NCBI RefSeq assembly: GCF_033568475.1
Contig: NC_133121.1
Location: 30,115,374 to 30,179,373, forward strand
Direction of reading: 5' to 3'
Length of the DNA: 64,000 nt
Source: Henckelia pumila
Lineage: Eukaryota > Streptophyta > Magnoliopsida > Lamiales > Gesneriaceae
Both the position numbers and the translations under genes were made by a program. Positions within the stretch are counted from its first letter, which is position 1. Each line of letters starts with the position of its first letter. The notes beneath the pieces are model-generated. The model searched no databases, was not told the DNA's origin, and was given only the letters and a program-made list of their open reading frames with translations. Positions 12,370 to 64,000 of the stretch are shown in pieces.

Positions 12370-12374
12370 GTGAC
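12370..12374. repeat. Target site duplication GTGAC (right)
   Basis: Second copy of the Copia target duplication; the Gypsy B LTR sequence continues from here (GTGACCCGTATCC). Confidence 0.9.
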
Positions 12375-13527: not shown

Positions 13528-13958
13528 TTGTAATGGACTGGGCCTACACACTCTGCTCTAGCCCATCTGGCCTCTGCTCTGGGCCGGCCCAGCCATATTC
13601 TAATCATGGGCCTTCTCCCCACCTGAAAAAGGGACTTTCATGCCCTCCCCAGGATTCGAACTTGAACCTCAGGCATAAGTGCAAATTCTTATCAATCATG
13701 GTACCACTTGAGCTCCCCACCTGGAAAGGGGAGTTTCATGCCCTCCCCAGGATTCGAACTTGCACCCCGGTAGCTCAAGTGGTACCATGATTGATAAGAA
13801 TTTGCACTTATGCCTGGGGTGCAAGTTCGAATCGTGGGGAGGGCATGAAACTCCCCTTTCCAGTTGGGGAGAAGGCCCATGAGTAGAATATGGCTGGGCC
13901 GGCCCAGAGTAGAGGCCAGATGGGCTAGATCAGAGTGTGCGGGCCCAGTCCATTACAA
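13528..13958. repeat. Foldback unit 1, near-perfect palindrome with tRNA-like core
   Basis: The left end TTGTAATGGACTGGGCC and right end GGGCCCAGTCCATTACAA are inverted repeats. The complementarity continues through arms of about 185 bp (13528-13713 and 13771-13958) around a spacer of about 57 bp. Each arm carries a core with a box-A-like TAGCTCAAGTGGTA (clearest at 13770-13783) and a box-B-like AGTTCGAATC, as in tRNA-derived SINEs. No ORF. The structure is seen directly; the SINE link is inference. Confidence 0.75.
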
Positions 13959-13977: not shown

Positions 13978-14193
13978 TAATGACCACACCCTCTGCATCT
14001 GCCATCATCTAGGCTCAGCTCTGAGAGTAGCTCAAGTGGTACCAGGGTTGAGTTGAATTTGCATATATTCCTGGTGGTGCAAGTTCAAACTCTGGGAAGA
14101 GCAAAAACTCCCCATCCAGGTGGGAGAAGACCATGAGTTGACCCACCCAGAGCTGAGCCTAGATGATGGCAGATGCAGAGGGTGTGTTCATTA
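13978..14193. repeat. Foldback unit 2 with forward tRNA-like core
   Basis: Arms of about 45 bp (TAATGACCACACCCTCTGC... at 13978-14027 and the inverted copy ending near 14193) flank one forward core: GTAGCTCAAGTGGTACC at 14027-14043, then GCAAGTTCAAACTCTGGG near 14082. Its terminal sequence differs from unit 1. A short palindromic joint (AAAAGGGCACCCTTTT) separates it from unit 1. Confidence 0.7.
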
Positions 14194-14202
14194 CATAAAT
14201 TT

Positions 14203-14402
14203 TTGTAATGGACTGGGCCCGCACCATCCGCATTCCGCCACATCAGGCTTTCGCTCTGGGGTGCAAGTTTGAATCTTGGAGAGGGCATGAAACTCCCTTT
14301 TTTAGGTGGGGAGAAGGCCCATGAGTTGAATATGGCTGGGCCGGCCCAGAGCGAAAGCCTAATGTGGCGGAATGCGGAGGGTGCGGGCCCAGTCCATTGC
14401 AA
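14203..14402. repeat. Foldback unit 3, unit-1 type ends
   Basis: Starts TTGTAATGGACTGGGCCC and ends GGGCCCAGTCCATTGCAA, so it shares the ends of unit 1. The inner arms (CCGCATTCCGCCACATCAGG... against CCTAATGTGGCGGAATGCGG) are its own and pair over about 60 bp. The core holds the box-B side (GTGCAAGTTTGAATC) and the GGGCATGAAACTCCC segment common to all units. Confidence 0.7.
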
Positions 14403-14418
14403 AAAAAGGCGCCCTTTT

Positions 14419-14581
14419 TTGTAAGGACCACACCCTCTGCTCTAGCCCATCTGGCCTCTGCTCTGGGTGGGTCACACTCATGGTCTTCTCCCACCTGGAT
14501 GGGGAGTTTCATGCCCTCCCCAGGATTCGAACTTGCACCTCCGGGCATAAGCTCAAGTGGTACAAGGATTGAGTTGAATTT
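14419..14581. repeat. Foldback unit 4, left half (split by Gypsy A)
   Basis: Left arm starting TTGTAAGGACCACACC, a unit-2 type end, and carrying the inverted core up to GAGTTGAATTT. The partner half is 23680-23820. The last five bases AATTT (14577-14581) are the Gypsy A target duplication, so the insertion point lies near the symmetry centre of this palindrome. Confidence 0.75.
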
Positions 14582-16655
14582 TGTAATGCCCCGTTTTTAT
14601 CTTAAATGAGTTTATTTGAGTTAATCAGAGATTACAGAGTTCTCGAGCCGGTTTGATTTTGATCAGGGTCCTTTTTGCAAATTTTGGAAATTTCAGGGAA
14701 AAAAACGCAAATATTGATTTTTATATATTATCTACACTTGGATTTGATTGGATAAATCTTCTCCTTCTTCCTCATTGCACGCCTCCTCCATTAGAGCCGC
14801 CCCCTTCTCATTCCAAGCTTTGGGATTTCAGTCCGAGCTCGATCCGTCCGTTAGAAATTATTTCTGAAGGCATATTAGCGATCACTGCTGCGAGAGCTTC
14901 GTTCTATCGTAAGTTTTTCTACGATCAGATACATTCTAGTTTTTGGATGTTGTTAGAATCATTCTAGATTTGAGTATGTTGTTCTCTACAGTGTTCTGAT
15001 CGTTTATTATCTGTCGGTTTTGAAATAGAGCGACGTTCGGAATTGTTATGATTTTTGCAAGCCATTTTCGAAAGTTTGAGTTTTGAGATTTGTTGGGATT
15101 GCCTTGTTGTTGTGGTATTAGCATTTTTATGAGATTATATCGGTATTGAACTGTTGTCTGCATTTTCGGTTTGTTCAGTTTATAGCCGTTATGCCGTCGG
15201 TTTGAGTTTTGGGGATTTCGAACCATCTTTGAGTTGTGATCTTGGCTTGTAAGTTGATCATGGTTATTGATCATTTATTTTTATCTGAACAGATTCGTTT
15301 GGAGCTTGTCAAACTCAAGGTTAACAGCAATTGTTCGTTTCAGAGTTTTGGACGAAGAACGGTATAGAGAATTACCTTGAGCCTTGTTGTTGTTTAGATT
15401 GGTTAGACTTTGATACAATCTTTTGTTGTAGCTTTCCAGAAGTTGGAACTACTGCATTGAAAGGTAAAAGCAGTCATCATAGCGGGATAGCATACTCGGG
15501 ACTGTTGGTTCTCGAGTTTCCCTTTTTAAATCACATATTGCATCGATACTTGTTCTAGCATGTGGAACTTGTATCTTGTTGATTGATTGAGTTTTGTTAT
15601 GTGGCTTATGTTTATGTTTATGTTTCTATTATGCATTCATCTTGAGCCTACTTTGATTTCAGCGGGCAGAACCGCCCTTTTTGTTTAGACGTTTGGGAAC
15701 TATGATTGAGTGGTCTAGGTTGTACTATTTTGCCTAGTGCTAGCATACTCATTATGGTTGCTCAAAGTCTAGAGGAGTGGGATACGTGGCACCACCTCGA
15801 TTGGGAGAGTCGGTGAGTCGTTACGTGATCTCATCCTCGGGATCCCAAAAGCAGAGCATCACTCCCTTGTTTATCAGAATTGATATCCTGGTTTTAAAGA
15901 CATGCATATCATTAGCTTCGACTTGAATATGTTGTTTTGATAGCATGTTGTATATTCATTACTTGTTATGTTGTTTTTACTGGGAATGTCATTCTCACCG
16001 GTTTATCCGGCTGTTGCTTTGTTTTGTATGTGTACTTGGCAACAGGTGGGGCAGTACAAAGTCAGCGAAGACCTGGTTAGCAACAAGAGGGAGAGCTAGT
16101 AGTGAGACTCGGTTTAGAAGTCGCGTCGGCATGTCTACCTAGTTGTATTTGAACATGTTTAGATATCGAACTTCGTTATGTTATTGTATTGTTTATGCGA
16201 GCTGTGTTGAAAGTTTGTCGTTACAAATCCAATACTTTTGAGCGGTTGTGTAACCCTATAATTTCATGTATTAGTTGGAGAACTTGTGATTGAAATGCAT
16301 GATAAAATGTTGTTGGTTTTGGACTCAAGTTCTAGCATGATTTCTGCTGTTTTGCTCTGTTTCTGTCACCGCTCGATCCGCAAGATCTTGCGGATCGAGC
16401 GAGGGCAAGCTGTGCAATCCTCTGTTTCAAATTTTTGTGGCTTGCTCGATCTGCAAGATCTTGCGGATCGAGCGAGGGCTAGGTTTTCCGGGCAGTAGCT
16501 TTGGCATAAGTTGCTTGCTCGATCCGCAAGATCATGCGGATCGAGCGAGGCACTATTTTAAAAAAAAAATTCTTTTAATTGCTTTAACCTTTGGTTATTG
16601 TTTATCTTAGTGTTGTTTAATCCCAAGATTAGATGTTTAGAATCGAGGTCTCACA
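14582..16655 (+). repeat. 5' LTR of Gypsy A
   Basis: 2074 bp, starting TGTAATGCCCC and ending TCTCACA. Near its 3' end are three copies of a palindrome built on CTCGATCCGCAAGA and its complement (16370-16401 perfect over 32 bp, 16444-16473, 16517-16546), then an A-rich tract. Confidence 0.92.
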
Positions 16656-16660
16656 TTAAG

Positions 16661-16671
16661 TGGTATCAGAG
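16661..16671 (+). other. Primer binding site of Gypsy A
   Basis: TGGTATCAGAG five bases after the 5' LTR end at 16655, complementary to the initiator tRNA-Met 3' end. Confidence 0.85.
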
Positions 16672-16954
16672 AGATAAGATTCTTGGTTGAACTAGAGTGA
16701 GCGGGTAGATCGAGCCTGCGTGTATTGGCTCCTCGCATGTGTTTAAATATTTTAACTGTGTACTTAATTCCATGCAAGCATGCTTTATTATTGAGAATTA
16801 TTGAATTACATGGTTATGTTATTTAATTTATAAAGCATGATCTACTTGAGATATAACTGTTTCTGTTATCGACTGGTATCCGGTATTCCAAGCGGTTGTA
16901 AGGGCACTGATTGTAGCGATTGAGATATCTCTTGTCCTAACCTTTGATTATCAG

Positions 16955-41832: not shown

Positions 41833-44800
41833 TCAATTGTGTAAATTACCACCTCTATCTATTAGCTTCCAAAGCGCTGCTTTAGCTTCCTCAAGTGTCT
41901 CGACAATTCGCCCTTGTTCAAATGAAATCCTCTGAATGTTAAACTGCGAGAGACATCATCAAACCAATCAAAAACATATATTACAAACAAAACCACCTCT
42001 TCTATAAAGCAATACTATCTATATGAAACCTGGGTGCCTTGGCGCACACGAATATCAACGCCCCGGCTGTCTATCGATATGAGAGCAGCATCATCTACCT
42101 CAGCTTCTTTAGACAAAACCACTTTCAGAGGCTTCGAAAATAATGCATTTAATTCCTACAAGAGTACCACAAATGTTACTAAAAGAAAGTGGAGCCAAAA
42201 ACCATCACTTGGATCAAGGCACAACTCTCGGTTATATCCATGGAATAAAATTTAGATGATAAACCTTCAGATTTTGTTCGCCTCCATCAACTGCAATCTT
42301 ATCAGGTTGAAGGGCTTCATATTCTTTAACATCAACCCAAGCAACAGTTCCAAAGCCTCCAATGAAATAGATATCACTGCTAATAGGTTATAAAGCAAAT
42401 CAAAATCTTAAGGTATTCATCTCAACGGTATCACACTGCATTAGCTTTACATTTTACTACTTTTTTCCTCTTTTCTTATTTTTCTAAAATCACCATCGAG
42501 TCGGGCTTGTCCACAAATAAACGTCGAAAATACATAAAGAGGAGCATCGAGCTTGAAATCCAGACCTAAGATACAACTTACAAGCAAACGTAGCAAATAG
42601 GTCCACTGAATCCAAAATGCAGATGATAGAAAGTCTGATCAAGGAATTTTGATCGAAGGTGACAGACCCAACATCACCAATCCCAGCCAAAATACAAACA
42701 ATACACAAAAATACCTCAAAAACAATCAAACAAGTGTCATGCACATGATACACACAAATAAAGGGAGTAATCCGAGTTACGCAACTATCACTATTATTCA
42801 AATCACTTGTTCAGTTGAAGCAGCACTTCACGGAGCAAAGAGCCAAAGAGAGGATTTGGTTAATCCACTCCATGTATTCTATTTGGAAGATATATCATGA
42901 TTTAACAACTGTTTATTCAAAAATTGGATGGAAGCATATTTTTTTCTTTTTTGGCGATAACTGATGAACAATTATTCAATGAAACTAGCACACTGCACTA
43001 CAGCAAAACAGATGCAGGAGGTCATGTCATGCTAGGGCAGAGGAAGATTCCATGCAGTTCTATACGGCATCAACAGTTCATACAAGTTACAATTGACTAA
43101 TATTGAGATATAATGTCTTAAACATATATCTATAAAATAAACTGATCACTTGTAAAACCAATAACTGTGAATTATGTCAAAGAATTCACAAACCTTATGT
43201 TCTGCATCCGAAAATAGTTCATACAAGTTACAATTGACTAATATTGAGATATAATGTCTTAAACATATATCTATAAAATAAACTGATCACTTGTAAAACC
43301 AATAACTGTGAATTATGTCAAAGAATTCACAAACCTTATGTTCTGCATCCGAAAATAGAAGAAATTTCCCCACTGTTGAGAAGGTCCTTGTTGATGTTTT
43401 GACATATATTGTTTATGAGCCCATTCCTGTAATGCAATGAGACGTGATTATCACCAGCAAGAAATAAAGTGTAAAACTGTAATCATTTGGGTGGTGAACT
43501 GTCAGTCAACCGAGACAAGTGGCGCCTGCATACAGTAACTCAATTATCACGAACATGTATGGAATATTCAGGAATCAGCATCAATCATTAATATTTACAT
43601 ATACACGAGTTTCTGAATGAACGCCAAAAAGTATCAATCATTAAAGAAGGCCTAAAATTCAGATGAGAATTTGTTCCATATATGTGGCGAGATCACCAAT
43701 AGTGACATGGGCACAGGTCATTCTTATTACTAGCAACTCACATGTGAGAATCCCAAAGCATGTCATTACTTTATATATGGTGGTGTACTAAGTTAAACAT
43801 TTACTAATGTAATGAAATCAGCTGAAGAAGAAAATCACCTGCTGGTCTTCTGGGAGTGGATATACATCACCAAAGATTGTTACACGTGCGTTTGACAAGC
43901 CACTCCACCCAGGAATCTGGTGAATTTTCATGCTTGTGAAACCCACAAACAAAATACGTAGCAATATTTTTGGTGATCACAGCTAAAAATATTGCAAAAC
44001 AAAACAGCTACCTGTACCACCAGAGAGCACCTTGGATCAGCTAACAAATTCCTTGTATGTATAGCCAATGGTGAAAATGAAAAGATTGGATCTGCAAAAG
44101 AACAACCACTCCAATGTCAAAATAAATATCTTGGTATTATTTTTAGTCTATCAGGTAGAAGTTGTCCAGTGAATAAGAGGTAAATTATGAGTAGTTTTCA
44201 GACTAAAACACTCAGCGCTCAGCAAAATCAGTCCTTGTTTCCTCAAGGCAGCCCTTCATAGCATGTCATACTAAAGAAATGAGGCATTCTCAATTATTCA
44301 ATCAGTTATTTTAAAGAGCTTGATAGGGAGATCTTAATGACCCCTGAAATGAAGAATCAGTAGTGGCTTTTGCACCAAAAAAATAAGAAAAAACAAGAAG
44401 CAGCTGCATCTGGTACATTAAAAAAAAAATTCCTGAATTCGCAATTGCGTTTTTCTGAATCCTTACATCCAGTTCATGAACCAAATACACCTCTACTTTC
44501 ATTCAAATAACAAGTCTAAATGTTTACTCTACCAATAATTAAAGAGAACATCTTCGAGGCCAAGTACCCAGGGTAACGAGTCTAACGACCGATGACTTTC
44601 CAGATTCCAAGAAATGTCACAAAAATAAAAAGGGATCAAAATTGTATTGAAACTAATAAACATGACACAGCAAAAAAGCACACAAGGCAATCCAGAGGTG
44701 CGTATAAGAGGCAAAACTTTAAGATACTTACGCCCAACAGGGTCTGCTGCAAAATCTACGAGGGAACCAAATGGATAGCCTTCCCGACGGTGGTGCATCC

Positions 44801-47800: not shown

Positions 47801-48612
47801 TTTTTTCTAGACTGCCCAGTGGAACAAATAACTAAGATTGAGATCGGATTAAGCCAAGAGAAGCCCGTGGTACTAATGGAGCCAATGCCAATATGATTAT
47901 TCAGTTATTTTCTAATTTGTTCTGGTATTCTAAGACATGAAGATTATAAATTTTTTATGTACTTATGATCAATTGATATATGCAGTTAATTTATTCTCTA
48001 TATGGTTAATTGATGAAAATTCTTTTTTCCAATAATGACACCTTCTAATATGTAATATTTCAGATGTTTGAACAAGGTTATCAACAAGCTTTAAAGGTTT
48101 GGGATGTTACACGGAACATGTTAGCTCGTGATAAAATCAAAAGCAAAGCACAGTAAAGATACCTAAGGCAATCAAAGCTCAAATTTTGATTAGGACGGAC
48201 CAAAGAAAAAGAGGAAACATGCAATGAAATGTCAAGAAATCACCAGACCAGCTCGAATTCATACAATGCGAAGAAGAATTAAACAGGAGCTCGCACACGA
48301 ATAATTCATTACCTCGCATGGAAAATCATGTTCTCCCGAGAGTAAACTGAACGCATCATTGTCATTACTATTATTATCCAATCGACTGTCCTCTTCCGTG
48401 CCGCCATCCTCCGATAATTTGCTATGCAGCGCCGAAATTCGCGACGTCTTGGTTCTGGAGGAGCTTAAATTGAATCTGAACAAGAGAGAACTGCAGAGGG
48501 TTGTCTTAAGCGAGTGAATGGGAGTTGTGGATGTAGAATCTGAGGGCTTGCGAAGCTGAGAGGTTGAATTGGAAAGCGCTTCCATGGAAGAAGACACGTA
48601 CAAGGAAGCCAT
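41833..48612 (-). CDS. Plastid PNPOx-like FMN split-barrel protein, nine exons
   Basis: Exons: 48612-48313, 45204-44959, 44834-44732, 44091-44012, 43916-43839, 43426-43335, 42376-42265, 42155-42030 and 41943-41833; 1248 nt, 415 residues, with consistent phases and GT-AG borders. The first 60 or so residues are rich in Ser, Thr and Arg and low in acidic residues, a likely plastid transit peptide. The split-barrel follows: RTLAVRNLMEQ-like start (PALAVRNLMEQ), RFAHLCTVMSRMHHRREGYP, FGSLVDFAADPVGHPIF, LAIHTRNLLADPRCSLVVQ, IPGWSGLSNARVTIFGDVYP and FFYFRMQNISDIYFIGGFG. A C-terminal HugZ/DUF2470-like part ends in ETLEEAKAALWKLIDRGG. The family binds FMN or haem; the role here is unknown. From memory it matches At1g51560. 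Intron 1 (3.1 kb) holds nested MITEs. Confidence 0.88.
43075..43358 (-). repeat. 141-bp tandem duplication spanning the exon 6 splice donor
   Basis: Positions 43075-43217 recur at 43216-43358 with an offset of 141 bp and no difference that I noticed. The copy nearer exon 6 holds its last 24 bases and the donor. The distal copy repeats these 24 bases (43194-43217) and a second identical donor within intron 6. Confidence 0.9.
45770..46783. mobile_element. hAT-type MITE (outer copy) in PNPOx intron 1
   Basis: Starts CTATGTTGCATGG and ends CCGTGCTACATAG, a terminal inverted repeat, with a perfect 8-bp duplication GTTAAGAG (45762-45769 and 46784-46791). An 8-bp duplication points to the hAT superfamily. 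It is about 568 bp without the inner copy, has no ORF, and includes GGTGTT hexamer repeats near 45957-45990. Confidence 0.88.
46230..46667. mobile_element. hAT-type MITE (inner copy) inserted in the outer one
   Basis: A 438-bp element with the same ends (CTATGTTGCATGG...CCGTGCTACATAG) and its own perfect 8-bp duplication CCAAAAAG (46222-46229 and 46668-46675). It sits in the right part of the outer copy. Its first 110 bp closely match the start of the outer copy. Confidence 0.88.
48064..48156 (+). other. Exon-like 30-codon frame, function unknown
   Basis: A TTTCAG acceptor-like site (48058-48063) is followed by an open frame that starts MFEQGYQQALKVWD and ends KSKAQ before TAA. Its composition looks more like protein than the AT-rich surroundings. 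It lies on the opposite strand in intron 1 of the PNPOx-like gene. I recognise no family and found no preceding exon; it may be a captured fragment or chance. Confidence 0.25.
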
Positions 48613-48870
48613 TTACACTGCTTTGATTCAGTAATAATTACACACGAAAAAGATTTTCAAAAAAACACACGAAAAAGCGCAAGGGTTTTAGGACAAACGA
48701 AGAAGAAGAAGGTTGCTCTATTTGGGCCGAAAAATGAAGGTGGGCCTTTCTTAGAACTAGAGTTCATTTGTGGACCACAAAACCAGCTTTAAGCTGTTGG
48801 GAGCCCATGGGTATGGGCTTTTATAACTAGCCGCCCTCATCGTCATTAGACGTCCTTAATAATTTAATAA
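48613..48870. promoter_or_regulatory. Upstream region of the PNPOx-like gene
   Basis: 258 bp between the start codon at 48612 and the tandem array. It must contain the 5' UTR and core promoter of the minus-strand gene. I could not fix a TATA box. Confidence 0.4.
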
Positions 48871-50675
48871 TATCGAATTTTTTTCCACTCATTTTCCCAC
48901 ATCACTTAATTTGACTATTTTTATTCTTGACCAATATGTAGGAGTCACACAGTTGGCTCGAGTTTTTATTATATATATACTAGGCAAGGGCACCTCAATA
49001 TTGAGGTGTTCAACCGGGTTTTTAGTTAAAAGATAGTTGAGAATAATTGTAAAATAAGGATTTATTTAAATTACATCATATGTAAGATGAGTATAATGTA
49101 TTGAAAGTTTTTAACAAATAGATATATCTATATATATATTATTTATAATACAACATAACTATTTTAGTAATCATTTATTGTATATATTGGTTCTCATAAG
49201 TATCATTCACATTTGTTTTTGTTTGAATTATAATATCGAATTTTTTTCCTCTCATTTTCCCACATCACTTAATTTGACTATTTTTATTCTTGACCAATAT
49301 GTAGGAGTCACGCAGTTGGCTCGAGTTTTTATTATGTATATACTAGGCAAGGGCACCTCAATATTGAGGTGTTCACCCGGGTTTTTAGTTAAAAGATAGT
49401 TGAGAATAATTGTAAAATAAGGATTTATTTAAATTACATCATATGTAAGATGAGTATAATGTATTGAAAGTTTTTAACAAATAGATATATATATATATAT
49501 TATTTATATTACAACATAATTATTTTAGTAATCATTTATTGTATATATTGGTTCTCATAAGTATCATTCACATTTGTTTTTGTTTGAATTATAATATCGA
49601 ATTTTTTTCCTCTCATTTTCCCACATCACTTAATTTGACTATTTTTATTCTTGACTAATATGTAGGAGTCACGTAGTTGGCTCGAGTTTTTATTATGTAT
49701 ATACTAGGCAAGGGCACCTCAATATTGAGGTGTTCACCCGGGTTTTTAGTTAAAATATAGTTGAGAATAATTGTAAAATAAGGATTTATTTAAATTACAT
49801 AATATGTAAGATGAGTATAATGTATTGAAAGTTTTTAACAAATATATATATATATATATTATTTATATTACAACATAACTATTTTAGTAATAATTTATTG
49901 TATATATTGGTTCTCATAAGTATCATTCACATTTGTTTTTGTTTGAATTATAATATCGAATTTTTTTCTTCTCATTTTCCCACATCACTTAATTTGGCTA
50001 TTTTTATTCTTGACCAATATGTAGGAGTCACGCAGTTGGCTCGAATTTTTATTATGTATATACTAGGCAAGGGAACATCAATATTGAGGTGTTCACCCGG
50101 ATTTTTAGTTAAAATATAGTTGAGAATAATTATAAAATAAGGATTTATTTAAATTACATAATATGTAAGATGAGTATAATGTAATGAAAGTTTTTAACAA
50201 ATATATATATATATATATATTATTTATATTACAACATAACTATTTTAGTAATCATTTATTGTATATATTGTTTCTTATAAGTATCATTCATATTTGTTTT
50301 TGTTTGAATTATAATATCGAATTTTTTTCCTCTCATTTTCCCACATCACTTAATTTGACTATTTTTATTCTTGACCAATATGTAGGAGTCACGCAGTTGG
50401 CTCGAGTTTTTATTATGTATATACTAGGCAAGGGCACCTCAATATTGAGGTGTTCACCCGGGTTTTTAGTTAATAGATAGTTGAGAATAATTGTAAAATA
50501 AAGATTTATTTAAATTACATCATATGTAAGATGAGTATAATGTATTGAAAGTTTTTAACAAATAGATATATATATATATATATTATTTATATTACAACAT
50601 AATTATTTTAGTAATCATTTATTGTATATATTGGTTTTCATAAGTATCATTCACATTTGTTTTTGTTTGAATTGA
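48871..50675 (-). repeat. Five-copy ~361-bp tandem array with Helitron-like 3' ends
   Basis: The marker TATCGAATTTTTTT recurs at 48871, 49234, 49595, 49954 and 50315 (periods 363, 361, 359 and 361). Each unit holds an 18-bp palindrome CACCTCAATATTGAGGTG (48991, 49354, 49715 and 50435; mutated at 50074). On the minus strand this is followed seven bases later by CTAG (plus 48980, 49343, 49704, 50063 and 50424). A hairpin followed closely by CTRR and T is the signature of a Helitron 3' terminus, on the same strand as the helicase further right. Each unit also has a TA microsatellite. Open frames of about 73 codons inside units are not credible genes. Confidence 0.8.
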
Positions 50676-51523
50676 ATACCAGAATATTTTAATAAAAGAA
50701 AAAGCTTGGATTCTATCTGCAATACTCTTTGAAAGATGAATGTCCACACTGGATTGGAGTGAAATTTTTATATTATTTCTTCGACTTTTTTTTGAAGTAG
50801 ATGATTGTAATAATATTGTCCATACTTAATATATGTGCAGTATTTATTTTCTATTGGATTTAATCTATAAACTAAGTTTTGTCTATATATAAATATGCAA
50901 AATGAGCCGAGTCATTAAGAGTTTATGACAAGTTGACTCAAGAGCTTATGACAAGTGTTTGTAACTGATTTTGTCAATTTAAGTGTTAATAGATTAGTCA
51001 GAATGGACATGACAATGTTGGGTTGTTAATAGATTTAATATTTGTAAATCGAAATCATGGTTATCACATTATTATATTTATACATTAATGGAACACGTAC
51101 AAAAATTTATGTGAATTGAAATTTTCATATTGTGAATCCCAAATGTATTGATAACTATTTCATATTAAATTCCTACAAAATGTAATTTTTATTTTAGCCG
51201 TGATTATTAAAATAAACTTGAATATATTGAATCCAACATCATACTTTTCTGCTACAAAACCACTGAAAATTACACAATTTTTTGAGATAGAGAAACTATG
51301 AACAAATAAAGATTGATTACAAAAATGAACGCTGGTAAATATTCTCATATTCATCAGCAGGTTAGCTTCAGCTTTTCACCCTGATCATAAATATTTGATA
51401 TAGGAGTATTAGAAAACAACAGAAACGAATCGAATACAACACTGGAAATCCATGTAAAACTTGTTTTATCCCAAAAAACATCAGGTTCACCTCGATTTTT
51501 CTTTATTATCTTTCTCAGTTGAT
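50676..51523. other. AT-rich sequence, no gene seen
   Basis: Between the tandem array and the HHL1-like exons. No domain, repeat or RNA gene recognised. It may be downstream sequence of the fragment to its right. Confidence 0.5.
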
Positions 51524-52523
51524 TCAGTACCCCGAGTTCAAGAATGTCATCTTCCCGAAAGATTCTCTAGAATCGCCAAACAAGTCCTTCACTTTATCGA
51601 AAACTGTTTTGAGTTTAGCCTGATGAGATGGGAGCTGAGAAAATTGCACGAAAAGGCCCCAAAAGTTATTGGAACTCAGCAAAGAAAAATGGAAAGAAAA
51701 AGTCAAGTGCAATTCCAAAGCAAGGAATATTAAATGTCAACCTTTTAAGTGCACATAACTTGGATTATTCAATATCCAAAGTATTACCTCAATCACTGTA
51801 TGGTGTGGTTTCCACTGCTAACAGGTAACCTATAGAAAAAGTCGAACAAATTCGGCATATAAGCTGCTTCTTCCCACCTTTATAGATACCATCCTTAGGT
51901 GGCTTGGCATATTTTTCACAAACAGGCGAAATGATTTCAGAAATAAGGTAGATTCATATTCTAAGATTGTCATGGTGCCAAATAAAACAAAGACAGAAAA
52001 GTCTGGCATTTAATATTCATTACCATATTCTGAGAAATCTATCAGACTGGAAAACACTGTCATACAGTTTTTATCGCCCCCTCGTACCTTAGATGCCGAT
52101 CTCCCAAAATAAGTGGAAAACAAAAAAAAAAAGAAAAGAAAAGAAAAGAAGCATTTAGAAAAGGAAGACAATAGATCGTGGAGCTGGTTGAAGCACTTAA
52201 CAACTAAAACCATCACAATTTTACAACAGCAAACAAATTTTCACGAAAGAAAATAATATTTGCTCAAAATTAACTAAAATTTCAAAAGATAGAACAACTT
52301 TCCTCATCCTTGAGGATCATCAATATATCACGTGGAGTCTAGTTCAAATATATGAAAGCCATAATAGCAGTGGAAAACTCACTTTATAAATGACTGCTGC
52401 AAGGTTCCTAGCTAGAGTATTATCTTTGTATATATATTTCCCCACAAAGGTGTCCTTTGTGGCAACAATAACTTTTGCAGTTGTGCCTCCTGATACAATA
52501 TTGAGCGGATACCAAAGGTAAAC
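51524..52523 (-). pseudogene. HHL1-like plastid protein exons, incomplete
   Basis: Three minus-strand pieces with splice-like borders: 52523-52383 (47 codons, phase 0, VYLWYPLNIVSGGTTAKVIV then FVGKYIYKDNTLARNLAAVIYK), 51814-51788 (ends HTVIE) and 51634-51524 (LPSHQAKLKTVFDKVKDLFG then FGKMTFLNSGY and stop). These resemble, from memory, the C-terminal half of HHL1 (At1g67700), a thylakoid protein linked to photosystem II repair under high light. The N-terminal part and the stretch expected between AAVIYK and VIELP are absent, so this is a fragment. It lies on the same strand as, and downstream of, the Helitron RPA and helicase relics, which suggests capture. Confidence 0.5.
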
Positions 52524-52909
52524 CTGACCAGAAGAAAGCTCCCACTAGTCAAAATCTTTGCAACCCATGAACCAAAAGAGTGGAGCAATCGAGCTGCTTT
52601 GTTAGATACAAAACAAAAGGATGCCTAGAACTCTACCTTTGGGCGCTTCATTTTCATAAAATGCTACCGACTACATAAGTCAAAGAAACTATGTCTTCAA
52701 GACGTAAAAGTAACTATTGCAAAGAAAGAGGTAGTCAGAAGGCACCTAGCAAAGAAATATTCTCATTGTTTTTGCATACAATATTCGGGATTACTTGATT
52801 TCAAAAAGTGATAATGCACAGTGGATTAAATGGTTTGCCACATTTAGGAAGAATATTTGGACATTGTAACTGTTGTGGTTCAAGTTTCCAAGCTATTTAA
52901 AGAACTTAC

Positions 52910-53039
52910 AATGGTTTTGGGCTTGGAAAGTCACGACTACAATATAGACATGTGAATTCACATCCATATACAGCTCCACAAGGTCTTGAACAATCTGGGC
53001 AAAGCTAAAATGTATAGACGATGTTGTGGCTCTGAGACT
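52910..53039 (-). pseudogene. RPA-like protein, zinc-finger portion left of Gypsy C
   Basis: Joining 60309-60278 to 53039 (dropping one copy of the target duplication) gives an open frame SFWVKDTLKVSEPQHR across the join. A one-base shift after YILA then gives CPDCSRPCGAVYGCEFTC followed by LYC, the Cys pattern of the replication protein A C-terminal domain. It ends at a GTAAGT donor-like site (52909). Plant autonomous Helitrons often encode such RPA proteins, which bind single-stranded DNA. The frame is broken by a shift and by Gypsy C. Confidence 0.65.
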
Positions 53040-53044
53040 TTTAA

Positions 53045-55063
53045 TGTGAGACCTCGGTTCTAAACAACAATTAAAGGAGTAATTCAATAAGTAAGCAATT
53101 AAAAGCCAAGAGCATTTTTTTTTAAAAGGAGACCCGCGGGCGCGCCGCTTGAGGCGCGGGCGCGCATGGTGTCCTGCCCAAGCCCTCACGCGGGCGCGCC
53201 TGAAGCTCTGCCCAAAACTTTCGAAACGAAGTGTGGGACGTGCGGGCGCGCCACCCGAGGTGTGGGCGCGCATGGCCTGCTGAATTGGCTCAAAACAAGC
53301 CTCCAAAAGTGCAATAACATAACCAAAAAAACTCTAACATGATCCAACTAATATATATCCAACAACATAGCATTTAAATACATAAAAGTGAAGAACACGC
53401 ATCGATGCTAGCTATTACAAGCCGAATACAGAATACAAGAGTTCTAACCACAAGCAAGACCACTTCCAATCCAAGTTCAAGTTCTTAACATGCTTCAAAA
53501 CATAAGCTAGATTTTCATGCTAACAAGACTTCTAAACCGAGTCTCACTTCTACATCATTCCCTCAAAGCTAACCATGTCTCTTCTGACTTGATCCTGCCC
53601 CACCTGTTGCCAAGTACACATACAAAACAAAGCAACAGCCGGATAACCGGTGAGAATGATAATCCCAGTAAAAGTAACATAACAAGTAATACAACAATAA
53701 TCATGCTTTCAAGACAACGACGAAATCCATGACAACGTAATGAGATGCATGTCTTTAAACCGGGATATCAAATCTGATAAACGAGGGATTGCTGCTGTGC
53801 TTTTGGGATCCCAAGGGTGAGATTACGTAACGACTCACCGACTCACCCAATCGAGGTGGTGCCACGTATCCCACTCCTCTAGACTTTGAGCAACTATAAT
53901 GAGTATGCTAGCACTAGGAGAAACGACTACGACCTAGGCCACTCAATCATAGTTCTCAAACGTCTAAACAAAAAGGGCGGTTCTGCCCGCTGAAAACAAG
54001 ATTGGCTCAAGATGAATGCATAACAGAAACATAAAACATAGCCATATAACAAAAGCTCAATAAAAACAACAGAACACAAGTTCCTCATGCTAGAACGAGT
54101 GTAGATGCAAGTATGTGCTTTTAAGGGAAACTCGAGAACCAACTGTCCCGAGTATGCTATCCCGCTATCGATGTCTGCTTTTACCTTTCAATGTCGTAGA
54201 TCCAACTCCGGACAAGCTACAACAAAAGATTGTATCAACAACTATACAACCTAAACAACAAACAGCGGTTCAAGGAAATCTCTTTATCGATCTTCGTCCA
54301 ACTCTTGACGAACAATGCTGCTAACACGGGCTTGACAAACTCCAAACGAATCTGTTCAGATTCAAATCAAAGATCAATTACCATGATCGACTTACAAGCC
54401 AAGTTCAACAACTCAATAACGGTTCGAAATCTCCAAAACTCAAACCGACGGCATAACGGCTATAAACAGAACAAACCGACAATGCAGACAGCAGTTCAAT
54501 AGCGATATCAACTCAATTCAATGCTAATACAACAACAACAAGACAAACCCAACAAATCTCAAAATCATGATTTTCGAAAATAGCTTCCAAAAATCATAAC
54601 AATTCCGAATGTCGCTCTAATTCAAAACCGACAGATAATAAATGACCAGAACTCCGCCAAGAACAACATACTAGAATCTAGATCGATTCTAACAACCTCT
54701 GAAAAACAAAACATATCTGATCGGAGAAATACTTACGGTATAACGGAGCTCTCACTGCAGTGATCACTAATCTGCCTTCAGAAATAATTTCTAACGGCCG
54801 GATCGAGCTCGGGAGGAAATCTGGAAGCTTGGAAAAGCTTGAAGGCATCTTCAATGGAGGAGCTCGATTTAGGGAAGAGGATGAAATGATTTCCAAGTCA
54901 AACAAATGTGTAGATAATATATAAAAATCAATATTTGCGTTTTAGTCCCTGAAATTTCCAAAATTTGCAAAAATGACCCTGATCAAAATCAAACCGGCTC
55001 GAGAATTCTGTAATCTCTGATTAACTCAAATAAACTCATTTAAGATAAAAACAGGGCGTTAAA
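53045..55063 (-). repeat. 3' LTR of Gypsy C
   Basis: 2019 bp. Plus strand starts TGTGAGACCTCGG; the other end is mutated from TTACA to TTAAA at 55063. It includes a GC-rich stretch (53134-53275) with repeated GCGGGCGCGC where Gypsy A has its CTCGATCCGC palindromes. Confidence 0.88.
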
Positions 55064-55161
55064 ATTCTCCCCCACTAAGAAGAGATTTCGTCCTCGAAAT
55101 CAATGAGAACCACAACTCATAAGATAGAATAAAGAACTAAAGACAGTAAGAAGAACTCACG

Positions 55162-58100
55162 TCATCCAAATAACTCCAGAAATCGCTGTCTCATGTCAGA
55201 CTCTGTCTCCCAAGTCGCTTCCTCGACGCCGTGACGGCTCCACTGCACTTTCACCAATGGAATCGACTTGGTCATGAGTTGTTTCTCCTTCCGATCAAGG
55301 ATCTGAATCGGTCGCTCAAAGTAGCTCAGAGTCTCGTCTAACTCGGCTTCGTCAGGCTGAAGGATATGTGAAGGATCTGGATGATACTTTCGCAGCATAG
55401 AGACGTGAAAAACGTCGTGAATACCAGATAAAGACGGAGGAAGTGCAAGTCTGTAGGCAAGATCGCCTATCTTCTCGAGAATCTCGTACGGACCGATGAA
55501 TCTCGGAAATAACTTCCCTCTCTTACCGAATCTGACAGTGCCTCTGAATGGAGAAATCTTAAGGAAAACGCGGTCTCCCTGCTCAAAACTCAGAGGTCTA
55601 CGTCTGACGTTCGCATACTTAGCCTGTCTATCTTGAGCTGAATTCATTCTGGTCTGAATGATCTTAACCTGCTCTGCCATATCTCTAAGCATATCCGGTC
55701 CCAAATCTGGTGACTCGGACAAGTCATCCCAAAACAACGGAGATCGGCATTTCTTACCGTACAATGCCTCAAAAGGCGCCATACCGATACTCGCTTGAAA
55801 GCTGTTGTTGTAAGAAAACTTGACAAGAGGCAAAGAATCCTGCCAACTAGTGCCAAAATCTAGCACTACCGCTCGCAGCATATCCTCTAACGTCTGGATT
55901 GTCCGCTCTGACTGTCCATCGGTCTGAGGATGATAAGCTGTACTCAGATGCAATCGAGTACCAAGTGCCCCCTGAAGACTGTGCCAGAAGTGAGAAGTGA
56001 ATCTAGGATCTCTGTCTGAAACGATCGACTTCGGCACACCATGCAATCTCACAACATTGCTAACATACAACTCAGCCATCTGATCATGATGATACGTCAT
56101 CCTGTACGGAATAAAACACGCAGACTTCGTCAATCAGTCGATCACTACCCAAATGGCATCGCATCCTCGAACGGATCGTGGTAGCTTCATGACGAAATCC
56201 ATGGAAATGTGATCCCACTTCCATTCAGGAACAGATAGACTGTGCAACAGACCTCCTGGTCGCTTCCGTTCTGCTTTCACCTGTTGACAATTCAAACACC
56301 GAGATACAAACCTCGCTATGTCGCTCTTCATTCTCTTCCACCAGAACTGGTTCTTCAGATCGTTGTACATCTTACGATCTCCAGGATGAATACTAAACCG
56401 ACTGCAATGAGCCTCTCGGAGAATACGCTGTCTCAACTCCGAAATATCAGGCACAACAATACGGTTATTCACGAACAAAACATCATCTCTAACCTGGAAT
56501 TCAGACTGATGACCCGATCTGACTTTCTCTACTGAAATCTGGATGCTCAGCTCAGACTTCTGTGCTTCTCTGATTGCAACAAACAACTCTGGCTCAGCTT
56601 GAATAGCAAACACTCTGATAGTCTCCCTATCTGTTTCAAACTCTAAACCAAACGTGCAACAATCATCGATCAACTGAGAAACACCGATAGTAGAAAGAGA
56701 TAAAGAACAAAGCTTTCGGCTCAAGGCATCTGCAACTGCATTAGACTTCCCCGGATAGTACTTGATTTCACAGTAGAAATCCTTCAACAGATCTAACCAT
56801 CTTCTTTGTCTCATATTTAGCTCTGCCTGTGAAAACAAGTAATTAAGGCTCTTATGGTCAGAAAAGATCTCGAAAGACTCACCATAAAGATAGTGACGCC
56901 AGATCTTCAGAGCAAAGACGATTGCAGCTAGTTCAAGATCATGGACCGGATAACGAGTCTCGTGCGATTTCAGCTGCCTCAATGCATACGCTATCACATG
57001 CTTATACTGCATAAGAACACAACCCAAGCCTCGATTAGAAGCATCACAATAGACTGTGAAACCTCCAGTACCCTTCGGAATAGAAAGAATTGGAGCACTG
57101 GTCAGTCTCCTCTTCAGATCAACAAAGCTAGCCTCACAATCTGGAGTCCAAACAAAAGGCGCATTCTTCTGAGTCAGCTGGGTAATAGGCTTGGCAATAG
57201 ACGAGAAACCCTCGATGAAACGACGGTAATAACCAGCTAAACCCATGAAGCTTCGGATCTCCGGCACTGAAGTAGGTCTAGGCCAATTCATAACCGCTTC
57301 AATCTTGCTGGGATCGACAGAAATCCCATCTTCAGAAATAATATGACCGAGAAAGACAACTCGATCTAACCAGAATTCACATTTAGACAACTTGGCAAAC
57401 AACTGCTCAACTCGCAAAATCTGCAGTACGGTCCTCAAGTGCTCTGCATGGTCAGTACGGTTCTTCGAGTAGATAAGAATATCATCGATAAAGATAATGA
57501 CGAACTCATCTAAATAACGCTGAAAGATACGGTTCATCAAACCCATAAAAACAGCTGGGGCGTTAGTCAAACCGAACGGCATGACTATAAACTCAAAGTG
57601 ACCATACCTCGTCCTGAATGCGGTCTTAGGAACGTCTTCCTCTCGCACTCTCAACTGGTGATAACCTGACCTCAGATCAATCTTAGAGTAGACATAAGAA
57701 CCCTGCAGCTGATCAAACAAGTCATCTATTCGGGGTAAGATACCTGTTCTTTACTGTAGCCTGATTCAATTGACGGTAGTCGATACAGAGCCGCATAGAA
57801 CCATCCTTCTTCCGAACGAATAGAACAAGAGCACCCCAAGGCGATACACTAGGTCTGATGTATCCCTTGGCAATCAAATCCTCAAGCTGCTCCTTCAATT
57901 CTCTCAATTCAACAAGTGTCATACGATAAGGAGCTTTTGAAATAGGTTGAGTACCTGACACTAATTCAATGCTGAATTTGATTTCTCGAATAGGCGGCAA
58001 TCCAGGAACATCTTCCGGGAACACATCCGCAAATTCTCTAACCACCGGTAAATCTACCAAAGCTGGGCTAGATTTTAGTACATCAACTGCATACACCAAA

Positions 58101-58240
58101 AATCCTTCTGCACCTTTCTGTAGCAAACGAGTCATAGATAACACTGAAATCAAAGGAATTCTAGATCGAGAACCCTTACCAAAGAATTTCCACTCGTTTG
58201 CCATTTCCGGTCTGAACCTGACAACTTTCTGGAAACAAAA
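55162..58240 (-). pseudogene. Gypsy C pol frame (RT, RNase H, integrase, chromodomain)
   Basis: Begins inside the pre-RT linker (…FRPEMANEW near 58204) because everything upstream is deleted. A 2-bp deletion near 57738 shifts the frame, and a TGA at 56134-56136 (CGA in Gypsy A) interrupts integrase; otherwise the frame is open to the normal stop at 55162. RT carries FIDD, RNase H carries YCDASNRG, integrase carries [12 protein letters not shown] and the core with AYHPQTDGQSERT, and the tail has [16 protein letters not shown] like a chromodomain. It is much less damaged than the Gypsy A frame. Confidence 0.92.
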
Positions 58241-58267
58241 GGGGACCCGCGGGCGCGCCGCTTGAGG
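58238..58267 (-). other. Deletion junction with stray LTR segment
   Basis: Thirty bases (plus AAAGGGGACCCGCGGGCGCG then CCGCTTGAGG) repeat the sequence at about 58338-58367 inside the adjacent LTR. They sit between truncated pol and the truncated LTR end (CCTCTG at 58268, lacking TGTGAGA). Confidence 0.8.
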
Positions 58268-60277
58268 CCTCTGTTATAAACAAAAATTAAAGGATTAATT
58301 CAATAAGTAAGCAATTAAAAGCCAAGAGAATTTTTTTTAAAAGGGGACCCGCGGGCGCGCCGCTTGAGGCGCGGGCGCGCATGGCGTCCTGCCCAAGCCC
58401 TCGCGCGGGCGCGCCTGAAGCTCTGCCCAAAACATCCAAAACAAAGTGCGGGACGTGCGGGCGCGCCACCCGAGGCGTGGGCGCGCATGGCCTGCTGAAT
58501 TGGCTCAAAACAAGCCTCCAAAAGTGCAATAACATAACCAAAAAAACTCTAACATGATCCAACTAATATATATCCAACAACATAGCATTTAAATACATAA
58601 AAGTGAAGAACACGCATCGATGCTAGCTATTACAAGCCGAATACAGAATACAAGAGTTCTAACCACAAGCAAGACCACTTCCAATCCAAGTTCAAGTTCT
58701 TAACATGCTTCAAAACATAAGCTAGATTGTCATGCTAACAAGACTTCTAAACCGAGTCTCACTTCTACATCATTCCCTCAAAGCTAACCACGCCTCTTCT
58801 GACTTGATCCTGCCCCACCTGTTGCCAAGTACACATACAAAACAAAGCAACAGCCGGATAACCGGTGAGAATGATAATCCCAGTAAAAGCAACATAACAA
58901 GTAATACAACAATAATCATGCTTTCAAGACAACGACGAAATCCATGACAACGTAATGAGATGCATGTCTTTAAACCGGGATATCAAATCTGATAAACGAG
59001 GGATTGCTGCTGTGCTTTTGGGATCCCGATGGTGAGATTACGTAACGACTCACCGACGCACCCAATCGAGGTGGTGCCACGTATCCCACTCCTCTAGACT
59101 TTAAGCAACTATAATGAGTATGCTAGCACTAGGCGAAACGACTACGACCTAGGCCACTCAATCATAGTTCCCAAATGTCTAAAAAAAAAGGGCGGTTCTG
59201 CCCGCTGAAAACAAGATTGGTTCAAGATGAATGCATAACAGAAACATAAAACATAGCCATATAACAAAAGCTCAATCAAAACAACAGAACACAAGTTCCT
59301 CATGCTAGAACGAGTGTAGATGCAAGTATGTGCTTTTAAGGGAAACTCGAGAACCAACTGTCCCGAGTATGCTATCCCGCTATCGATATCTGCTTTTAGC
59401 TTTCAATGTCGTAGATCCAACTCCGGACAAGCTACAACAAAAGATTGTATCAACAACTATACAACCTAAACAACAAACAACGGTTCAAGGAAATCTCTTT
59501 ACCGATCTTCGTCCAACTCTTGACGAACAATGCTGCTAACACGGGCTTGAAAAACTCCAAACAAATCTGTTCAGATACAAATCAAAGATCAATTACCATG
59601 ATCGACTTACAAGCCAAGTTCAACAACTCAATAACGGTTCGAAATCCCCAAAACTCAAACCGACGGCATAACGGCTATAAACTGAACAAACCGACAACGC
59701 AGAAAGCAGTTCAATAGCGATATCAACTCAATTCAATGCTAATACAACAATAACAAGACAAACCCAACAAATCTCAAAATCATGATTTTCGAAAATAGCT
59801 TCCAAAAATTATAACAATTCCGAACGTCGCTCTAATTCAAAACCGACAGATAATAAATGATCAGAACTCCGCCAAGAACAACATACTAGAATCTAGATCG
59901 ATTCTAACAACCTCCGAAAAACAAAACATATCTGATCGGAGAAATACTTACGGTATAACGGAGCTCTCACTGCAGTGATCACTAATCTGCCTTCAGAAAT
60001 AATTTCTAACGGCCGGATCGAGCTCGGGAGGAAATCTGGAAGCTTGGAAAAGCTTGAAGGCATCTTCAATGGAGGAGCTCGATTTAGGGAAGAGGATGAA
60101 ATGATTTCCAAGTCAAACAAATGTGTAGATAATATATAAAAATCAATATTTGCGTTTTAGTCCCTGAAATTTCCAAAATTTGCAAAAGGACCCTAATCAA
60201 AATCAAACCGGCTTGAGAACTCTGTAATCTCTGATTAACTCAAATAAACTCATTTAAGATAAAAACAGGGCGTTACA
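58268..60277 (-). repeat. 5' LTR of Gypsy C, 7 bp short at its inner end
   Basis: About 2010 bp, very similar to the left LTR including the GC-rich segment (58346-58490); ends GGGCGTTACA at 60277. No primer binding site follows on the inner side. Confidence 0.88.
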
Positions 60278-60450
60278 TTTAGTGTATCTTTCACCCAAAA
60301 AGATTTTACCTGCAAGTGGGAATGTAGTATGTTAATATTTCTTTATGAGATTTAAGTAAAGAGAAACTAAATTATCAATGAAAATTACCGTTTCTGTCAA
60401 AATGTGGATTTGATTGATCTTTCGAACTTGGGAGTCTGATGGCTGATATC
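60278..60450 (-). pseudogene. RPA-like protein, OB-fold portion right of Gypsy C
   Basis: An exon ending at 60389 (QVRKINQIHILTET, donor GTAATT) and a second starting at 60309 after TTGCAG (VKSFWVKDTLK) read in phase and continue at 53039 across the Gypsy C insertion. The order is that of an RPA-type OB fold before its zinc domain. Earlier exons between here and the helicase were not resolved. Confidence 0.55.
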
Positions 60451-60887
60451 TGTTTTGGTATGATTTTTCATATAACTTTTGAGAGAACATTTTCTATATA
60501 ATCTTATTTTTTTAGCAGAAATGTGAGTCGAAAAATTTTTAATTGGAGTTTTGAAACAACATTAAACAACTTTAAATTTTTGAGATATTTATGAACAAAA
60601 TTTTGGGAACAAATAATCATCTATAAGTAATGAATAAAATGAATGTTGGCTAAGAAGGAATATTGTTATGTGCAGTTTTGAAATGTAAAAATTGTAGTTG
60701 CCTATATTTTTTTTAAAGCAAAAATGTTAGGCGAAAAATTTTTAATTGGAGTTTTGAAACATCATTAAACAACTTTGACAAAATTTAAAAACTTTAATTC
60801 AATCCTGATAGTGTTGATAGCAATTAATTGAGTATAAGAATTGAGAATCCATCAAATGAAAGATTTGTAGGTTAGAAGTTATCTATC
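60451..60887. other. Spacer between RPA and helicase relics
   Basis: AT-rich; holds two copies of a short segment (AAAATTTTTAATTGGAGTTTTGAAAC and flank, about 60533-60560 and 60737-60763). No gene resolved. Confidence 0.45.
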
Positions 60888-62626
60888 TCAAAGAATACTC
60901 GCTGCCTCTAAAACATCATGGTACACAACGTTCTTTGTATAATTAGTACTCTGGATCAATGGTGTTGATGGTCTAATAAGCACCTTTAACTGATCTATAG
61001 TCTTTGCTCTTGACAATGCAACATAAAGTTGTCCATGTGAGAAAATAGGCTCTTCAAATAAACACCAACAAAATCAAGAGTTTGACCTTGTGCTTTATTA
61101 ATTGTCATTGCGAAGCATAGTCGGACAAAAAATTGTTTTCTTTTGAATGGAATGGACAAAAAATTTTCATGAGGAGTTTCTAATGTGATACGAGGAATAA
61201 AGACATCCTTTCCAGTATGTATACCAACTGATATTTCAGCGTAGATTACATTTGTGTTGAAACCTTTACAAAGAAGTCGTGTGCCATTGAAAATTCCTTT
61301 GGTTGTATTAATATTTCTGAGAAGTATGATTGGTGCATTTAGTTTCAAAGATAGTTTATGCGAAGGAAGTCCTTGAGGAGTTAAAGAATGGAATAGTTCT
61401 TCTTGGTCTGGTATAATACAAGAACTTATGTTTTCGTCGCAGCTATAATAAGTGTTTTCTTCACCGAGAAATTTAAAAATCAATACACCATTAATGTCGT
61501 TGACAAACTCGTTCCGTGTGGTGAGTATTGCTCGTTTAACAAATAAAGAGAAATATAAATTAACATTGGTAATATTTGGGAACACTGTCTCTATTAATAT
61601 ATTTAAAGATGTAGCTTCATCTGTAAATGGGATTTTTGCTTCAGATCAAATTAGAATTTCATCTTTTTCGTTCATTTCTTCAACACCGTCTCCAATTTTT
61701 AATAAGTAAGAAGAAGATTTCGAATCAAGTAATGCTCGCATGTTTTGATTCAGTTTTAATTTCTCAAAATGATTCCATAAAGGTGACATAACAATTGACG
61801 AATTTATTATATCATCCTTATTATTTTTAAGAATCACTGGTAATGTTTGGCGAAAATCTCCATCGAAGACAATAATTTTACCACCGAATATTGTTTGTAT
61901 ATTCATTATGTCTCTTAACATTTGATCAAATTTTTCAATAATACTGCGTTTAGCCATTTTAGCCTCATCCCAAATTATTAATTTTGATATTTTTATTAAA
62001 TGAGCAATTGTGCTTTGTTTACTTATGTTACAAGGTTTGGAGTTATTTTCGTCCAAAGGAATTTTAAATCGTACTGAGTGGGAAGTGCGTCCTCCTGGAA
62101 GAAAAGATGTTGCGACACCTGAAGTTGCTGTAGAAAGTGCTATGTGACCAGCAAAACGAATTGTGGCAAGAATTGCTTTGTATAAGAATGTTTTTCCAGT
62201 ACCACCAGGACCATCGACAAAAAATACACGAGACAAATTATTATTAACACAATATAAAATCTGGTTGTAAGCATATTTTTGTTCTTTATTTAATTGCTCA
62301 ACATCAAGTAGGTCTTCATTAGGTATAGTTATATCTTTTTCAGTTTGTAATTCTTTTGTCAAATTATCATCAGAACTTAGAAATACTTCATCGGTTACTA
62401 AGAAGAAATCTTCTAATCTTTTTCCCATTGAGTATAGATGATATGAAATATTGTTTAGTACTTTCTGTTTAATTACGTAAGGATTGAGAGATTTAGTTTG
62501 TTCAAAATATTTTGATAAGAACTTTTCATGCTTCAACCATAATTGTTTGGGATTCTTTGGGTCACAGTAGACGAGGGCAGTAGCAAACAATTGTCGTAAA
62601 GCAGTAGGCATCAAATAGGAAGTTGC
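60888..62626 (-). pseudogene. Helitron Pif1-type helicase, truncated and broken
   Basis: The minus-strand frame from 62626 reads SYLMPTALRQLFATALVYCD and then the SF1 helicase core: Walker A GPGGTGKT near 62210, DEAKMA near 61960, GDFRQTLPV near 61845 and LNQNMRA near 61740. The C-terminal half has PIILLRNI, MTINKAQGQT near 61090 and YVALSRAKT near 61010, ending at a stop at 60888. An in-frame TGA at 61646-61648 and a one-base deletion near 61054 inactivate it. In Helitrons this domain unwinds DNA during rolling-circle transposition. The N-terminal Rep part is absent because a Copia LTR interrupts the frame at 62627. Confidence 0.9.
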
Positions 62627-64000
62627 TGTTGGAAAACTTGTTCAGATCAATTAAGAATTGATACCCGGTGCAACGGAAATTTAAAAATTTTATTTTATAT
62701 ATGGAACGATTCCATATCATGGGTATCAAAACTTTTATGATTAAATTATGCAAGTAAAAATAAAATCACAATTAAATTTTTACCTATTCAAGCAAAGGCT
62801 TGATAATGGACTCCAACAGAATTTAATCTGCTCTTCTTGTATATCCCGGGAACCGATGGCTTTACGATCAATCTCCGGAATAAGGTCCACGAACAGAAAA
62901 CAGAAACCCTCTAATTGATTGCACTAGAAATCAATCAGATATGTATCGATGAGAATAAACAGATTTGATCTGTTAATTCGGAATGTAATTTTTCACAAAA
63001 ATCACAGACCGAATTTTCTCAAAAGGGACAGAGGAATTCAAAAATTCCCCTTGAATATTATGTGTGATTTTCGAAATTTGCAAGATGGAATGCTTATGAT
63101 TTTCGAACACTACTCATATATTTATAGATAATTTCTAGACTAGATTAAGTTATGATTATATTAGGACTCTAACTCCTTAGGGCCCATAATCCATAACTTA
63201 AGCCCAACAAGCCAAGCCTGTTATTATAGAAATTAATATAAAATTCATCGCGACTCTTATTGATAAACTGATTTTACCAATGTACACAGAAACCATTTCT
63301 GCATCTTTTAAAGTCAAGATAATTTTTTTGAATCCGAATTCAGTGATTTCCAAAAATGCCCATCCCTATGTCATTTTAGAAAATTCCACTCTCTTTAATT
63401 AAGAAGTCCAACTTCTATTTCATTAAATTTAACTCTTTAAATTTAACTATCTCAACGGGGTTTAGTAATCCATTACTTGTGTGACCCTCAATGGTTCAGG
63501 GATACAGCTAGCCGTGGGCTCACAACTCCTTGTGACTCGGAACAAAAATTTCCGACTTGCCCAACGAATCATGGTAAGAGCGTCTAGCAACATCGCCCCA
63601 TGATTCCCTAGGTATCACTGATAGTGCTTGCAAGAACCAGTAGATTTTGGTTAGCGTACAGTACGGTCCCTTCATCCATATATCCCGATCAAATCAACAA
63701 CCATTGGTGCATCGAGAGTCGTTCGAGATTCGATAACTATGCATTACATCTTGGAGATCAAATAATGACATCGCATGTGTTACTAGGAAAACCGAGTAAC
63801 CTAAAACACATCATGTACTCTGGCCAGAGATTCGTCACACTAATATCTCCTCAGATCGCATAGGATATCCACACTCGCAAGTATGTGGTGAATCCTTGAC
63901 AACAAAGAATCGACTCCTATATGTGTCGTTACTTTACCCAATCCCGACACCTGATGACCCCAATAGAGTCGGTAAATGAGTCAAAGTACAGTACTAGCAT
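62627..64000 (-). repeat. Copia LTR, diverged relative of the complete element
   Basis: Starts TGTTGGAAAACTTGTTCAG, then GATACCCGGTGCAACGG, and follows the LTR of the 2905-12369 element to the window edge with many substitutions and indels. No primer binding site lies on its left side, so it is the left end (3' LTR) of a minus-strand element, or a solo LTR, inserted into the helicase frame. GTTGC (62622-62626) is the candidate target duplication. Confidence 0.85.

Follow-up and report, generated by a model that had tools for sequence, protein, structure and literature searches.

How a part of the photosynthesis gene HHL1 comes to lie among Helitron sequences is the question raised by the locus C2:30115374-30179373 of this 885-Mb genome, which belongs to a plant as judged from its genes. 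The 64 kb between these positions are called the window below. An earlier note had read positions 48871-62626 as a decayed autonomous Helitron that may have captured part of this gene, and the observation is confirmed. We compared a further 20 kb to the right of the window and aligned Helitron copies from elsewhere in the genome alongside. In the explanation that we hold with high confidence, a decayed RepHel Helitron copied the 3' part of HHL1 at the DNA level into its interior and then transposed with that part.

Extent and coding content of the Helitron

One Helitron occupies the minus strand between a 5' TC end at 83475 (window numbering) and a hairpin-CTAG 3' end at 50424. The earlier note proposed looking for the TC end to the right of the window; it lies 19.5 kb past the right edge (C2:30198848) and is preceded by A. 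As that note had described, a helicase, an RPA-like exon, HHL1-like exons, and an array follow in order on the minus strand, but the true extent exceeds the span that it reported. The copy measures ~33 kb end to end, of which the single-copy Helitron and the HHL1 piece make up ~9 kb by coordinate arithmetic. Its size is inflated by a pair of LTR retrotransposons and by a 2.4-kb sequence in four tandem copies. From the 5' end to the RPA exon, the features are:

73808-83434 (window numbering), minus strand: 2.4-kb Helitron 5' stretch, present four times in tandem, with the copies near equidistant (pairwise distance 0.054-0.062)
73502-72729 (window numbering), minus strand: Rep domain frame (PF14214, 9.8e-48)
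62626-64515 and 70108-71996: LTRs of a retrotransposon nested in RepHel (LTR distance 0.028)
61646-62641, minus strand: Pif1-type helicase, first RepHel frame (PF05970, 1.8e-66 for 62638-61646), colinear with copies C1a, C2b, C4a, and C4b
60995-61645, minus strand: helicase C-terminal portion, downstream of an in-frame stop (Pif1_2B, PF21530, 5.8e-13)
60278-60309, minus strand: start of the RPA C-terminal (zinc-cluster) exon, by alignment to C1a and C4b
53045-60277, minus strand: nested Ty3/gypsy LTR retrotransposon that splits the RPA exon (LTRs located by alignment at 53047-55061 and 58263-60275)
52910-53044, minus strand: second part of the RPA exon, with a GTAAGT splice donor at its end

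Both ends have the form of Helitron termini, with a 5' TC after A and a 3' hairpin a few nucleotides before CTRR, then T. The 5' terminus TCTACATATATGAAAG, with A before the TC, is present in all six copies compared. These represent five sites, because C1a and C1b are one duplicated insertion. The TC of the branch comprising the window and C1 copies could sit 6 nt further out. The palindrome, 7 nt, CTAG, and a following T recur in all three copies whose 3' end was found (window, C4a, and C4b), and the hairpin has a folding energy of -6.4 kcal/mol (z -3.88). C4a and C4b are 98.6% identical internally and have dissimilar flanks. C1a and C1b sit in segments that share 99.2% identity across 10.2 kb, of which 4.4 kb are 5' flank; these segments form an inverted duplication that takes in the HHL1-bearing Helitron (C1:105598001-105628000 and 105675001-105705000), in which the two 5' ends are ~63 kb apart. 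Joined-flank searches of this genome found no empty site for C4a, nor any for the window copy among the 40 candidates scored out of 344.

The helicase named in the earlier note is borne out by two domain matches, listed above, whose frames are divided by the stop codon in the window copy. Position 62626 joins 71998 directly in other copies, the gap between being the LTR retrotransposon, and RepHel resumes beyond it from 71998 upward. Both the Rep domain and the Pif1-type helicase, the pair that defines a Helitron RepHel protein, are found in the window copy and in C1a (PF14214 5.7e-54, PIF1 6.2e-72). Pif1 matches number at least 150 in the genome, with 150 of 425 candidates scored, and a plasmid search gave no match. 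The Ty3/gypsy element has TG...CA borders read from the sequence, an LTR distance of 0.025, and matches to reverse transcriptase, RNase H, and integrase, with chromo below the cut-off. In the alignment it is missing at the corresponding position of C1a.

The RPA-like protein of the earlier note is reduced to one exon. This exon is identified as RPA by its alignment with the same exon of the HHL1-less relatives; by itself, the zinc-cluster exon matched no RPA entry in Pfam or PDB. Once joined by eye, the RPA exons of C4b give a match to human RPA70 (3.4e-5) and, below the cut-off, one to Pfam DUF223 (0.0081). The remaining RPA exons are gone from the window copy: a 1.8-kb stretch of C4b with the RPA N-terminal exons (11840-13622, local coordinates) is absent from the window and C1 copies. 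The branch that bears HHL1 is thus the same branch that is without the upstream RPA exons of the HHL1-less relatives. An autonomous plant Helitron would have intact RepHel and RPA genes, and the window copy has a helicase stop, nested LTR elements, and one split RPA exon. Therefore, the description as a decayed Helitron stands, but 'autonomous' fits the relatives better than the window branch.

The HHL1 piece, its donor, and its junctions

HHL1 is reported to have a role in photoprotection (PMC10173003). The intact gene that the earlier note suggested seeking elsewhere is present on C77 as a complete model with five exons, four GT-AG introns, and a product of 231 residues. The product belongs to the HHL1 family by its match to the Pfam model HHL1-like (PF20133, 1.9e-11, 44.5 bits against a cut-off of 23.7). 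By themselves, the exon 2 and exon 5 peptides of the window matched no HHL1 model. A search with window 52900-51250 gave 21 matches, the largest outside the window being on C1 (C1a and C1b) and C77; C112 holds a more distant relative. The piece and its surroundings are:

52844-52909, minus strand: last Helitron backbone before the capture junction (left of junction 52843)
51090-52842, minus strand: captured HHL1 fragment, comprising the end of intron 1, exon 2, intron 2, an exon 4 remnant, intron 4, exon 5, and 3' flank
52383-52523, minus strand: HHL1 exon 2 copy, 141 nt with one 3-nt insertion, acceptor and donor intact
51788-51796, minus strand: HHL1 exon 4 remnant, its final 9 nt, at the 291-bp deletion junction 51797/51796
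51487-51634, minus strand: HHL1 exon 5 copy, frameshifted
50674-51082, minus strand: Helitron 3' subterminal backbone resuming after the captured piece, 66% to C4a and C4b over 51082-50702

The fragment is 91-92% identical to C77:8617034-8615006 (minus strand) by BLAST and 94% identical with gaps excluded. Homology opens at window 52842 (C77:8617034), within intron 1, and closes at window 51090 (C77:8615006), beyond the HHL1 stop. The introns are retained, which indicates copying at the DNA level. The earlier note took the lack of both the N-terminal half and an internal stretch as marks of capture. The former holds, as the piece starts in intron 1, but the internal gap has another origin. The window copy is without exon 3 and the bulk of exon 4 because of a 291-bp deletion, and since C1a still holds these 291 bp, they were lost after the capture.

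Separately from the Helitron copies, a 299-bp copy of the end of intron 1 and exon 2 lies at C79:6173677-6173975. It is 93.6% identical to the C77 gene and 91-92% identical to the Helitron copies, and its end is no more than 4 nt away from the border of exon 2. It may be a second independent capture or a duplication.

Left of 52843, the window matches the HHL1-less copies C2b, C4a, and C4b. The last 56-57 bp of this backbone (52900-52844) recur at five other places, at least four of them within ~4 kb of a Pif1 match among the matches listed. Where the HHL1 piece sits, the three HHL1-less relatives carry other Helitron sequence, which in C4b amounts to 2.8 kb (14052-16833, local coordinates). 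The left junction is common to window 52842 and C1a 18857 (local coordinates), as both begin at C77 20967, and C1a has a different 5' flank. Therefore, the loaded element moved. At the right junction (~51083), ~7 nt separate the end of the HHL1 match (51090) from the resumed backbone (51082). This junction is seen in the window copy only, because neither C1 copy shows the element's 3' part in the DNA compared. By eye, microhomology is at most 1-2 nt at the left junction and not clear at the right.

The arrangement therefore shows what is expected of Helitron gene capture: a donor elsewhere, backbone on both sides, and a left junction shared by the window and C1. The gene-like exon order and strand of the piece, together with its introns, would also suit the relic of another host HHL1 gene that once stood here and was invaded by a Helitron and LTR elements. 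We regard such a relic as very improbable, since the backbone encloses the piece, the C1 insertion has the same left junction under another flank, and homology to C77 begins in intron 1, with exon 1 matching nothing in the 39 kb compared at the window copy, nor in 30 kb at either C1 copy. It is still less credible, to the point of being negligible, that separate, unrelated insertions brought the helicase, RPA exon, HHL1 piece, and array together. Two LTR elements do split the region, but C1a is colinear with the window over 8.5 kb, from the 5' end through RepHel, the RPA exon, and HHL1. Helicase, RPA exon, and HHL1 piece are contiguous there and therefore belong to one element, which also removes the objection, raised in the earlier note itself, that RPA and helicase might be separate insertions. 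In addition, the backbone is common to C2b, C4a, and C4b, and the array units bear the 3' end of this Helitron family.

Capture by the Helitron thus remains the preferred reading. The 3' part of HHL1 would have been copied via repair or strand switching during rolling-circle replication of the element, probably with loss of neighbouring Helitron sequence. The loaded element then transposed, and decay at the window locus followed.

Timing and coding state

All distances were computed with gaps excluded. For the HHL1 piece, they are 0.064 between the window and C77, 0.059 between C1a and C77, and 0.053 between the window and C1a. For the helicase, the window and C1a differ by 0.055, and the distances to the HHL1-less copies are 0.092-0.094 from the window and 0.083-0.094 from the window and C1a taken together. 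These values suggest that the capture came shortly before the window and C1 insertions, the two that bear HHL1, diverged. The site patterns of the HHL1 piece are nearly star-like (43 sites unite the window and C1a, against 33 and 33 for the alternatives), so the case for a single capture leans on the shared junction more than on substitutions. By their LTR distances (0.025 and 0.028), both nested LTR elements are later than this divergence, and the 5' 2.4-kb repeats (0.054-0.062) are about as old as it.

Selection on the captured exons is unsupported by the substitution counts. Under a uniform expectation, nonsynonymous and synonymous changes would stand at 3.6 to 1. C1a has 14 nonsynonymous changes, 4 synonymous changes, and 1 nonsense change in 138 codons, and the partial C1b has 5 nonsynonymous and 0 synonymous changes in 46 codons. 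The window has 5 nonsynonymous and 4 synonymous changes in 96 codons, counts too few for an informative ratio alone, in addition to the exon 5 frameshift and the deletion. The exons are closer to the donor than the non-exon parts are (3.1% vs 6.8% in the window, 4.6% vs 6.0% in C1a). Such a contrast is expected from constraint along the lineage of the donor itself, and constraint on the copy is not needed.

A working RPA-HHL1 fusion was also considered and rejected. The RPA splice donor at 52909 and the HHL1 exon 2 acceptor ending at 52524 are both intact, but the exon phases differ (2 vs 0, by eye), and HHL1 would therefore be out of frame in such a splice.

Terminal repeats, the neighbouring gene, and known Helitrons

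At and beyond the 3' end of the element lies the array, followed by a gene:

50424-50452, minus strand: the first of five Helitron 3' termini (18-nt palindrome, 7 nt, CTAG, then T), most likely the element's original one
48867-50673, minus strand: array of five ~361-bp units, each with ~250 bp of Helitron 3' end and ~111 bp of post-CTAG flank
48313-48612, minus strand: first exon of a neighbouring plastid-targeted-looking gene (gene stretch 48612-40000), not part of the element

In agreement with the earlier note, every unit has a Helitron-like 3' end, with CTAG retained 7 nt past an 18-nt palindrome that is perfect in four units and has two mismatches in one. The palindrome-7 nt-CTAG pattern had no match in 100 shuffles. 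The units differ pairwise by 0.008-0.055. Up to the CTAG (query position 250), the unit resembles other places in the genome, several of them beside known copies. Some of these matches reach 8-16 nt beyond the CTAG into AT-rich sequence, and none spans the 113 bp that follow it. These 113 bp matched the five units only, and the last unit continues into the host flank. Had the element brought the array along, different flanking DNA would be expected there, so the array most likely arose by tandem duplication of the element's end and the neighbouring DNA after insertion. The maize model, in which multiple 3' termini come from nested Helitrons, would place the five units before insertion; such termini occur in 28.7% of maize helA elements according to PMC3288121. 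We consider this quite unlikely here, because the 113 bp after each CTAG are the host flank of the last CTAG, and because an intact CTAG, kept in all five units, is absent from 99 of the 100 internal 3' ends sampled in that study.

The four 2.4-kb repeats at the 5' end include the N-terminal RepHel coding part, and C1a and C1b have one copy each. It is conceivable, though quite unlikely, that these repeats and the 3' array record several abortive rounds of rolling-circle replication at the inserted copy, reading through beyond the 3' end, and not ordinary unequal crossing-over.

A distance of 255 bp separates the array from the start codon of the neighbouring gene, whose upstream region the Helitron occupies. 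The first exon from 48612 (minus strand) was considered as the missing start of HHL1 and rejected, since it is part of a different gene, the later exons of which (joined by eye) match a CREG beta-barrel (4.4e-10) and, just under the cut-off, PNPOx_N. This CREG-type gene is a candidate for the glutamyl-tRNA reductase-binding protein (GluTR-binding protein) gene. Along its stretch, two identical 141-bp tandem copies lie at 43075-43358.

The locus offers a well-resolved capture: a single genome reveals the donor, the left junction, and the later movement, and the captor still has RepHel sequence. The HHL1 capture and the RPA exon loss mark one branch. This co-occurrence hints at a route by which a self-sufficient Helitron may come to depend on relatives. 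For annotators, no additional HHL1 gene is to be called at the window locus; otherwise the outcome is an ordinary Helitron one. A full-text literature search found no paper with both 'Helitron' and 'HHL1'.

Capture by plant transposons is treated in a review (PMC13317346). Gene capture, multiple 3' termini, and internal sequence loss are described for maize Helitrons in PMC3288121, and RPA-bearing families and semi-autonomy for rice in PMC4683698. Like the present element, maize ZmhelB1 and ZmhelB2 and the sister family of rice Mothra, as described there, have Rep/helicase and an RPA-like gene, TC and hairpin-CTAG ends, and internal losses. In contrast to them, the window branch keeps RepHel sequence with one RPA exon found, followed by host HHL1 sequence. 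Maize gene-fragment-capturing Helitrons likewise hold host fragments inside elements that then transpose (PMC3288121). However, the captor in the window still carries RepHel sequence, whereas the maize Helitrons identified before that study were nonautonomous by its account. Several copies of the 3' end in one locus also recall maize helA; here each unit has an intact CTAG and includes host flank, which points to duplication after insertion. The process is therefore the already known gene capture by plant Helitrons, and this locus is a clean example of it, not a new process.
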